Shown: in pieces, positions 61,976-64,000 of the stretch
Numbering within the stretch: position 1 is the first letter of the stretch
Layout of the letters: each line of letters opens with the position of its first letter
From: Pseudomonas sp. Irchel s3h14
Lineage (GTDB): Bacteria; Pseudomonadota; Gammaproteobacteria; Pseudomonadales; Pseudomonadaceae
Direction: 5' to 3'
NCBI RefSeq assembly: GCF_900187425.1
Contig: NZ_FYDJ01000003.1
Span: forward strand, 336,987 to 400,986
Length of the DNA stretch: 64,000 bases
The notes under the pieces: model-generated
Seen by the model: the letters and a program-made list of their open reading frames with translations, nothing else
The model's database searches: none
Told to the model about the DNA's origin: nothing
Translations under genes and position numbers: made by a program

Positions 61976-63163
61976 TTGCCTCTGCGTAGCACTTTCACGC
62001 GTTTCTTCCAGTTGGAAGCTGCCAGCGGTCTGTTATTGATCGCCGCTGCGGCCCTGGCTTTGATCATCAACAACTCCCCGCTGTCGTGGCTTTACAGCAG
62101 CTTTCTGGACACTCCGGTCGTGGCCCAGGTCGGCGCGTTGCAAATCGCCAAACCGGCGCTGCTGTGGATCAACGACGGCCTGATGGCCCTGTTTTTCCTG
62201 CTGATCGGGTTGGAAGTGAAGCGCGAAGTCCTTGACGGTCAACTGTCGAAACCGTCGCAAATCGTCCTGCCCGGCGCGGCGGCGATTGGCGGCATGGTGG
62301 TTCCGGCGTTGGTCTACTGGTTTCTGAACCGCGAAGACCCGGCAGCCCTGAGTGGCTGGGCCATCCCGATGGCCACCGACATCGCCTTCGCCCTCGGCGT
62401 ACTGGCCCTGCTGGGTAAGCGGGTACCGGTGTCGCTGAAGCTTTTCCTGATGACTTTGGCGATTATTGACGACCTAGGCGCAATCATCGTCATTGCGATC
62501 TTCTACTCGGGTACGCTCTCGACCCTTTCGCTGTCTCTGGCCGCGACGTGCATCGTGGCCCTGATCGCGATGAACCGGCTCGGGGTGGTCAAGCTCGGGC
62601 CGTACATGATCATCGGTTTGATCCTTTGGGTTTGTGTGCTCAAGAGCGGCGTCCACGCGACACTGGCCGGTGTGACCTTGGCCTTCTGCATTCCACTGCG
62701 CACGAAAAACGCCGAACCTTCGCCGCTGCTGACCCTCGAACACGCCCTGCATCCATGGGTGGCCTACGGCATCTTGCCGCTGTTCGCGTTCGCCAACGCT
62801 GGCCTGTCCCTGAGCGGCGTGACCGTCGAAAGTTTCACCCACCACGTGCCGATGGGCATCGCGGTCGGCCTTCTGCTGGGCAAAACCCTCGGCGTCTTCG
62901 GCCTGACCTGGCTGGCCGTGAAAATCGGCATCGCCGCCCTGCCCCAAGGCGCCAACTGGGGCCAGGTATTGGGCGTGGCAATCCTCTGCGGCATCGGCTT
63001 CACCATGAGTCTGTTTGTCGGCTCCCTGGCGTTTGTACCGGGTGTCAGTGAATACGCCGGGATGGACCGGATGGGGATTTTGACCGGGTCGATACTGGCG
63101 GCGCTGATTGGTTATGCGGTGACGGCGGCAGCGAGTCGCAAGAGCGCCGTTCTGCAATCCTGA
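61976..63163 (+). CDS. nhaA: Na+/H+ antiporter NhaA
   Basis: A 395-residue NhaA antiporter with 12 predicted helices. The key acidic residues are present: Asp135 in [15 protein letters not shown] and the pair Asp165/Asp166 in [16 protein letters not shown], equal to Asp133 and Asp163/Asp164 of E. coli. [16 protein letters not shown] is the conserved N-terminal loop. The start is a TTG after GGAGAG. It exports Na+ in exchange for H+ and supports salt and alkaline tolerance. The 239-bp region before it is AT-rich with promoter-like runs. Confidence 0.94.
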
Positions 63164-63236
63164 TAAACAGAGACAACTCTTAGAGTCATTGAAGACTCGT
63201 CCTACAGCCACGATCAGCCTCGTTCGTTAACGTCGC

Positions 63237-63259
63237 ACAGCCCCTTTTTTGGGGGCTGT
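63237..63259. repeat. Hairpin between nhaA and the pyocin-like gene
   Basis: ACAGCCCC-TTTTTTG-GGGGCTGT. It could be a terminator for nhaA, though no T-run follows the stem; the T's are in the loop. It ends 25 bp before the next start codon. Confidence 0.5.
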
Positions 63260-63284
63260 CGATGTTCGAACACAAGGAAGATCA

Positions 63285-64000
63285 GTGGCTGGCAATAAGG
63301 ACATTCCCCGGGTTCAGAACCCTCCGTCAGGCGACGGTCATCACGTCACTCACCGCTTTATGACGGCTACCGAACTGGCCGCGCGGGATGCCAGACAAAA
63401 CGCTTACGACGCCATGCTCGCGAGGCAAGACGCCTTCGAACGGAGTCGTGAGGTCGTCGCGAAAAAGCACGAGGCCGTTCGCGCAGGATGCGTATTCGCC
63501 AAGTCCTGCAAGCTTCCCGACGCCATCATCGATTACTCGAATCCTTCGGGGATGGTGCCTACCGACAGCCTCAAGGACTACGGAGAAGTCGCCTGGCTCG
63601 GTGCTCGTGAGGTAGACGATGCCGGGCTGCTGAATCTTGAAACGATCAGTGGCAGTACTGTCTCGCTCGGCATCGGCCGAATGGCTCTTCGCACACCGAC
63701 TCTCGCCGTTCCCACCGCAGCACTCAGTGCTGCTGGAACCGCCATATTGGCCGGCCTGGTCGCGTTTTTCTGGACGCCGAGCCTGGGCGACAGCGCGCTC
63801 TATACCGAAGATCAGTTGCGCGCGCTGAAACAGGCTCGAACTCGTGTTCGGCTAAGAGTCGAGCAACAGGCTGACGGCAGCCTCAAGGGATACGGTTTCT
63901 ACACCGGCAAGAACCGCGATTGGGAAATGGTCGATGTCGTGCAGTTCACATTGCGCGGCAGCCAGCAGGTGGCGGTCCTGGGGGATGGTGTTGAACTGAT
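63285..64000 (+). CDS. S-type pyocin domain protein, 5' part
   Basis: A bacteriocin-like gene cut by the window end; 238 residues are visible. The GTG start at 63285 follows AAGGA. The N-terminal part (1-65) is charged and helical (MTATELAARDARQNAYDAML), then CVFAKSCKLPDAIIDYSNPS and GEVAWLGAREVDDAG (69-114), a hydrophobic Ala/Gly-rich segment (about 139-164), and from about 167 the start of a pyocin S domain (LGDSALYTEDQLRALKQART, RGSQQVAVLGDGVEL). There is no room for the large TonB-receptor-binding domain of classical S pyocins. The toxic domain and any immunity gene are beyond the edge. Confidence 0.75.
   Translation, partial: MAGNKDIPRVQNPPSGDGHHVTHRFMTATELAARDARQNAYDAMLARQDAFERSREVVAKKHEAVRAGCVFAKSCKLPDAIIDYSNPSGMVPTDSLKDYGEVAWLGAREVDDAGLLNLETISGSTVSLGIGRMALRTPTLAVPTAALSAAGTAILAGLVAFFWTPSLGDSALYTEDQLRALKQARTRVRLRVEQQADGSLKGYGFYTGKNRDWEMVDVVQFTLRGSQQVAVLGDGVEL

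Follow-up and report, generated by a model that had tools for sequence, protein, structure and literature searches.

A short Pyocin_S toxin of Pseudomonas with a predicted rRNase domain, a PAAR-related S domain and a conserved structured leader

Toxins built from a Pyocin_S domain and a C-terminal nuclease have been described from two directions, as putative bacteriocins and as effectors of the type VI secretion system (T6SS). In the Pseudomonas fluorescens group, a set of putative bacteriocins termed N1, each combining PF06958 with PF09000 or a DNase, was reported from nine of the ten strains studied (Loper et al. 2012, PMC3390384). For pyocin G, the Pyocin_S domain is needed for passage through the inner membrane, together with FtsH and TonB1, and the same report notes that the domain occurs in T6SS effectors (PMC9040868). 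One of these is VPA1263, in which the MIX domain is needed for T6SS secretion and the PyS-HNH part alone was not secreted (PMC9602870). Here we describe a member of this class consisting of a short N-terminus, a Pyocin_S domain and a predicted rRNase, and compare it with its relatives across the genus.

The window analysed is a 64,000-nt stretch of Pseudomonas sp. Irchel s3h14 (source genome G000; G000:C28:336987-400986), and the contig runs on past its end. Positions beyond that end are given on the contig and in a 14 kb region spanning it (L002, in which a position equals the window position minus 62000). The toxin gene lies on the + strand at the very end of the window, with the first 238 of its 408 codons inside (63285..64000). 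It begins with a GTG codon at 63285, preceded by the Shine-Dalgarno (SD) sequence AAGGA at 63274-63278 (63274..63287, +, for both together), and the frame ends at L002:2511, or C28:401497 (would be 64511), giving a protein of 408 residues. The nearest in-frame stop codon 5' of the start is at 63228-63230, leaving room for an N-terminal extension of no more than 18 codons, in which a receptor-binding domain could not be concealed. Residues 1-65 (63285..63479, +) match no known domain in Pfam or NCBIfam; they contain the motif PRVxNPPSGDGHHVT..MTATELAERDARQ, followed by a helix predicted for residues 28-58 in a low-confidence model. After 68 residues comes the segment CVFAKSC (residues 69-75; 63489..63509, +), common to PAAR-Pyocin_S proteins and not found in long Pyocin_S proteins, and then a hydrophobic stretch before the S domain at about residues 123-166, with limits set by eye (63651..63782, +). 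Pfam places the Pyocin_S (inner-membrane translocation) domain at residues 175-305 (E 2.9e-28; in-window part 63807..64000, +). A preliminary description, made from the window sequence alone, had correctly recognized this domain and the CVFAKSC segment ahead of it, although it put the start of the domain slightly too early, at about residue 167.

Beyond the window, the Cytotoxic domain (colicin E3 rRNase, PF09000) occupies residues 321-404 (E 1.9e-29), and the remaining Pfam match up to E 1 is Cloacin, at 0.13 and under its cut-off. The NCBIfam model VPA1263_T6SS_effector partly matches residues 90-307 (2e-20), its 72.7 bits being far under the 900-bit cut-off. The best PDB match is colicin E3 (2e-28), with residues 307-407 of the toxin aligned to 451-550 of the colicin, and D366, H369, E373 and R401 coincide with the colicin E3 residues that we take to be catalytic. 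A DPY motif, a feature of nuclease bacteriocins (PMC5536347), is intact at 288-303 (D288-FP-Y303), also beyond the window. Across 42 aligned rows, D366, E373 and R401 and the DPY residues D288, F293, P294 and Y303 are invariant; H369 varies. An AlphaFold model of the toxin has a mean pLDDT of 48.6 and is good for the rRNase only, and partly for helix 28-58. Judging from its C-terminal domain, the toxin probably cuts the ribosomal RNA of rival bacteria. No receptor-binding domain of ~200 residues or more was found with Pfam, which returned no domain match at the N-terminus and only the Cytotoxic domain after the S domain, and no PAAR, VgrG, Hcp, MIX or Rhs domain was found in the toxin up to E 1 with Pfam and NCBIfam. 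The earlier view of a toxin without a receptor-binding domain therefore holds: no Pfam domain precedes the S domain, the in-frame stop ends at 63230, and neither an upstream in-frame extension nor a receptor-binding domain after the S domain was seen.

It had also been anticipated that the toxic domain and immunity genes would lie just past the window, and reading on along the same contig revealed both the colicin-E3-type rRNase at residues 321-404 and, directly downstream, an ImmE3-like immunity gene (C28:401505-401759 = L002:2519-2773, would be 64519-64773; Cloacin_immun, 1.2e-29, Pfam). This is followed by an orphan immunity gene of the pyocin S6 type (C28:401884-402135 = L002:2898-3149, would be 64898-65149; NF040643, 5.9e-29, NCBIfam). 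When toxins at the best 80 of 362 relatives' loci were typed by a simple pattern, which left 5 untyped, the next immunity gene was ImmE3-like for 31/31 E3-like toxins; the 44 S6-like toxins were followed by an S6-type gene in 25 cases, by no detected gene in 18 and by an ImmE3-like gene in 1. The pairing in all 31 cases identifies the first immunity gene as cognate and the second as the orphan, a relic that may still protect against a sister toxin of the S6 type. A partial copy of the leader hairpin described below (TTTCGTTAACGTC..AGCCC..GGGGGGCTGCGA) is present at L002:2810-2860 (would be 64810-64860), 5' of the orphan gene, and is probably the scar of a toxin that was replaced. On the other side of the toxin lies a gene at 61976-63163, presumably the Na+/H+ antiporter gene nhaA; the same nhaA-like gene is upstream in 51 of the 80 named loci. 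The source genome encodes a second short VFAKSC-Pyocin_S-Cytotoxic protein (C32:604167-604862, covered by L141 and L142), with a longest frame of 426 residues and an unrelated N-terminus. This second toxin (C32:604 kb) is S6-like, and the immunity gene directly after it, of the S6 type, shares 35% identity with the orphan. Two more Pyocin_S matches lie close together at G000:C38:215880-219163, in frames of ~900 and ~520 residues that lack the VFAKSC motif, and a pair resembling them recurs in five other genomes (G025, G029, G038, G049 and G058).

The toxin belongs to a family that is widespread in the genus. A match at E <= 1e-3 is present in 161/298 Pseudomonas genomes, many of them full-length, so the observation is not a matter of chance, and full-length copies at 63-87% identity occur in many species. 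A scan of GTDB genomes returned 362 relatives, the best 80 of which are all named Pseudomonas, and a class-wide search of 274 genomes gave a match in the source genome only. In an alignment of 26 chosen members, conservation runs from VFAKSC through the S domain, and the region ahead of it is short and falls into several unrelated types; in non-PAAR relatives no more than about 25-144 residues of the longest frame come before the motif. The C-terminal domains vary as well, comprising E3-like and S6-like rRNases (both PF09000), a colicin/pyocin DNase (L049) and another kind (L040). The description that Loper et al. 2012 give of their N1 putative bacteriocins fits this family. As far as literature searches go, what is new is the division by motif and tree that ties the short class to PAAR proteins, along with the leader; no description of the VFAKSC split or the leader was found in the literature searched, which covered few subscription journals.

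Four proteins of the same genus (L143, L145, L148 and L149) carry a PAAR_motif and a Pyocin_S domain together, all with VFAKSC ahead of the S domain, as does a P. aeruginosa plasmid protein with the order PAAR_motif, CVFAKSC, Pyocin_S. In Aeromonas, a PAAR frame ending shortly after CVFAKSC lies beside a Pyocin_S frame. How far the segment follows protein architecture was measured on the 100 Pyocin_S matches listed for 59 genomes, read from DNA, using the pattern [VIL]F[ATMI][KR][SPT]C at most 160 residues before the S domain and setting aside seven fragments (L261, L262, L318, L319, L327, L338 and L341). The motif is present in 45/50 of the short or PAAR class, with 110-264 residues before the S domain, and in 0/43 of the long class, with at least 275. 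In the other five of this class (L288, L291, L296, L299 and L336), inspection by eye shows variants at that position, CVFVKSC and CTFLKPC among them, and a small home-made profile finds a PAAR domain in 3 of the 45 motif-bearing proteins. A maximum-likelihood tree of 41 chosen Pyocin_S domains likewise separates 11 long proteins on one side (100/100) from 24 short and 6 PAAR proteins on the other (100/100), although the tool issued a long-branch warning, the root serves display purposes only, and the tree does not settle the order of PAAR and short forms. By sequence kinship, this places the S domain of the toxin with the PAAR lineage, and its position on that side of the tree argues against a pyocin that has lost its receptor domain. 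The split between short or PAAR proteins and long ones makes the delivery of spike-less Pyocin_S toxins directly testable.

The source genome carries T6SS genes, with 1 match for VipB, 9 for VgrG (PF05954) and 1 for Hcp. The preliminary description had proposed looking for VgrG, PAAR or Hcp genes close to the toxin, and none was found in the 14 kb of L002. The same was seen in a broader tblastn search of 105 family loci (1.69 Mb) with 30 VgrG, 23 Hcp and 5 PAAR queries, whose single match was the PAAR portion of L139, a fused protein; these loci comprise 100 relatives' loci from two overlapping sets, two regions of the source genome and three plasmid loci, and are not independent, with some genomes present twice. 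A control set of 24 T6SS loci gave hits in 19 with the VgrG queries and in 17 with the Hcp queries. Of the 298 genomes of the genus, 262 have VipB, the gene of the T6SS sheath, and toxin matches at E <= 1e-3 occur in 153/262 genomes with VipB vs 8/36 without (p 6e-5). Relatives at E <= 1e-50 are found in 124/262 and 3/36, respectively (Fisher p 3e-6). Genome size and kinship confound both associations, VipB-negative genomes often being small; for these counts, 16 unlisted VipB-negative genomes were identified by subtraction, and the E <= 1e-50 count was made by hand. The three VipB-negative genomes with such a match are G063, G087 and G151, the last holding a 259-codon fragment; among those listed with 6.0 Mb or more (n=8), 3 have E <= 1e-50 relatives, one of them this fragment. 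The five VipB-negative genomes with the clearest toxin matches have kept other T6SS genes, G063, G087, G106 and G151 both vgrG and hcp, and G128, with a weaker match, vgrG only, which fits a recent loss of the T6SS core. Of the two alternative routes suggested by the preliminary description, type VI is favoured by homology, on the strength of the PAAR-VFAKSC-Pyocin_S proteins in the genus, the tree split and the T6SS genes in the toxin's own genome, and contact-dependent secretion of the CdiA type gained no support. A CDI toxin was rejected as a reading, since Pyocin_S and Cytotoxic are the only domains in its 408 residues and it is not a large CdiA exoprotein.

The gene is preceded by a conserved structured mRNA leader of ~120 nt (63164..63287, +). 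It contains an anti-Shine-Dalgarno strand, CGTCCT, within the near-invariant GTCCTACAGCC (63198..63203, +), and a hairpin, GTTCGTTAACGTCG...CGATGTTCGAAC (63222..63271, +). The leader is conserved in the 30 loci of a first search, with a mean column identity of 79%, even though 11 of them have something other than the nhaA-like gene further 5'. As a single sequence, the leader folds at -50.8 kcal/mol (z -5.8 vs 200 shuffles), with CAC paired to the GTG and CCU to the SD. An alignment (A4) was built from this leader and those of 72 of the 80 named loci, omitting L092, in which the match starts later, and the diverged L103, L108, L112, L114, L124, L134 and L135. In its RIBOSUM consensus, the CGUCCU of the near-invariant GUCCUACAGCC pairs with AGGACG, that is the SD and the bases following it, closing over the hairpin; the plain RNAalifold consensus contains the hairpin only. 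Both the single-sequence fold and the RIBOSUM consensus pair the SD, and the former also pairs the start codon, whose pairing with CAC hardly varies and is hence uninformative. Among 72 distinct leader rows, 92.9% of cells are paired vs 26-51% when slid. Double-change cells number 41 vs 16.8 +- 3.9 in shuffles (0/500 as high), a test in which related sequences can exceed shuffles even without structure, and pairs with a double change number 7, little above shuffles (4.7; 47/500 as high). The SD helix hardly varies. With these pairing counts and a near-constant SD helix, the hairpin is well supported and the SD-masking helix plausible, and the leader appears to hide the start signal of the toxin. 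A small 5' hairpin, GAGTC..GACTC, is not a constant feature of the leaders.

Searching 119 genomes with a covariance model built on the leader gave 31 strong matches (E <= 6e-20) and, at E 6e-6 to 3e-3, 4 weaker matches. Thirty of the strong matches were read, and 29 precede the toxin's N-terminus, intact or broken, the other (L253) being a bare remnant; the leader occurs essentially only before its own toxin subfamily. At eight loci (L228, L238, L240, L244, L245, L246, L250 and L252) it is followed by broken toxin remnants, which points to rapid turnover of the leader-toxin module at its sites. Within the source genome, the model recovers the toxin site, the reverse complement of the hairpin there (E 0.05) and, at chance level (E 0.7), a place before an unrelated frame (L055). 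A leader common to T6SS genes was considered and rejected, as this genome shows no sign of one. In Rfam, L002:900-3400 gave one match up to E 1, located elsewhere and far under its gathering score, and none for the leader. The leaders of other N-terminal types are different, and by eye some of them allow a comparable GUCC...GGAC pairing; in those of L046, L049, L051 and L052, a GUCC or GCGUCC stretch could, again by eye, pair with the SD region. Post-transcriptional control would not be unprecedented: pyocin S3 is linked to the sRNA PesA, and the predicted PesA target includes the ribosome-binding site of the immunity gene (PMC5493400). As a compact, toxin-specific RNA with pairs kept through two-sided changes, the leader is a candidate translational switch.

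Read directly from the DNA are the domain order, the E3-like catalytic residues, the DPY motif, the paired immunity gene, the kinship of the S domain and the structured leader. We judge it rather probable that they describe a bacterium-against-bacterium toxin of a T6SS effector lineage that lacks a spike domain and travels like cargo, as opposed to a shortened pyocin. Through its short N-terminus the toxin would attach, without a covalent link, to a VgrG or Hcp whose gene lies elsewhere in the genome; the T6SS needle would then put it in the periplasm of a rival, from where the hydrophobic stretch and Pyocin_S domain could carry the rRNase over the inner membrane, as with pyocin G (PMC9040868). 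The rRNase would cut 16S rRNA and stop translation, with the ImmE3-like protein protecting the producer and the leader holding translation low until a signal opens it. Because secretion of VPA1263 needs its MIX domain, by analogy the secretion information of the present toxin should lie in its short N-terminus. A further proposal, which we make tentatively, is that the N-termini before VFAKSC are interchangeable, hitherto undescribed docking tags for a T6SS encoded elsewhere, joined to a translational lock borne by the toxin itself, a new cis-regulatory RNA in which the near-invariant anti-Shine-Dalgarno strand and hairpin would hide the start until a signal (e.g. an sRNA, an Rsm-type protein or temperature) arrives.

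The same class has been published as putative bacteriocins with variable receptor-binding domains (PMC3390384), and the toxin could be a diffusible bacteriocin released by lysis, with an N-terminus of ~65 residues that binds and crosses the outer membrane of close relatives. A gene standing alone at a fixed site, with the nhaA-like gene 5' in 51/80 loci, is reminiscent of pyocins beside toxA (PMC4905994), and 3/36 genomes without VipB hold matches at E <= 1e-50. We nevertheless regard this as unlikely, as the S domain falls on the PAAR side of the tree and not the long side, the unrelated N-termini of relatives (~25-144 residues before the motif) are short beside the 241-residue receptor-binding domain of pyocin S6 (PMC4905994), and no PrtN box was seen by eye in 63164-63287. 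That no T6SS gene was found near family loci, and that N-termini vary in front of a kept stretch from VFAKSC to the S-domain end, would also suit an N-terminus acting as address tag for tailocin lysis, vesicles or another secretion system; this is improbable given the PAAR fusions of this module within the genus, which name one machine. Decay of a pyocin that lost its receptor domain and with it delivery is hardly credible. Broken copies do exist (among 30 leader loci, 8 hold remnants only, L227 has a premature stop and L253 no toxin), but full-length copies 63-87% identical persist in many species with D366, E373, R401 and the DPY residues invariant, and the S domain is not nested among the long ones. 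If instead the T6SS reading is true, a toxin family that is very common in the P. fluorescens group moves from putative bacteriocins to contact-dependent weapons, and contact dependence would change how its targets, range and biocontrol use are studied.

Among known systems, colicin E3 has an rRNase domain like that of the toxin, with the catalytic residues kept, although neither the T nor the R domain of the colicin is matched in the toxin. Pyocin S6 shares with it a pyocin translocation domain and an E3-type rRNase, and the orphan immunity gene is of the S6 family; however, pyocin S6 has 571 residues, a 241-residue receptor-binding domain and a P-box (PMC4905994), in contrast to the 408 residues and ImmE3-like immunity protein found here. 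The N1 putative bacteriocins are similar in joining PF06958 to PF09000 or a DNase, but their description assumes receptor-binding domains and a bacteriocin role (PMC3390384), and the present toxin lacks such a domain. VPA1263, a MIX-LysM-Pyocin_S-HNH effector of the T6SS (PMC9602870), aligns with the toxin over the hydrophobic stretch and Pyocin_S domain; the toxin differs in having no MIX or LysM domain, an rRNase instead of an HNH DNase, and 408 vs at least 869 residues. The PAAR-Pyocin_S T6SS effector YPK_0952 (PMC11237486) resembles it in combining Pyocin_S with a C-terminal toxin and an immunity gene. Unlike effectors of the YPK_0952 or PAAR-Pyocin_S type, the toxin is without PAAR, unlinked to T6SS genes and armed with an rRNase instead of a DNase, yet the PAAR-Pyocin_S proteins of this analysis carry the same VFAKSC segment as the toxin.
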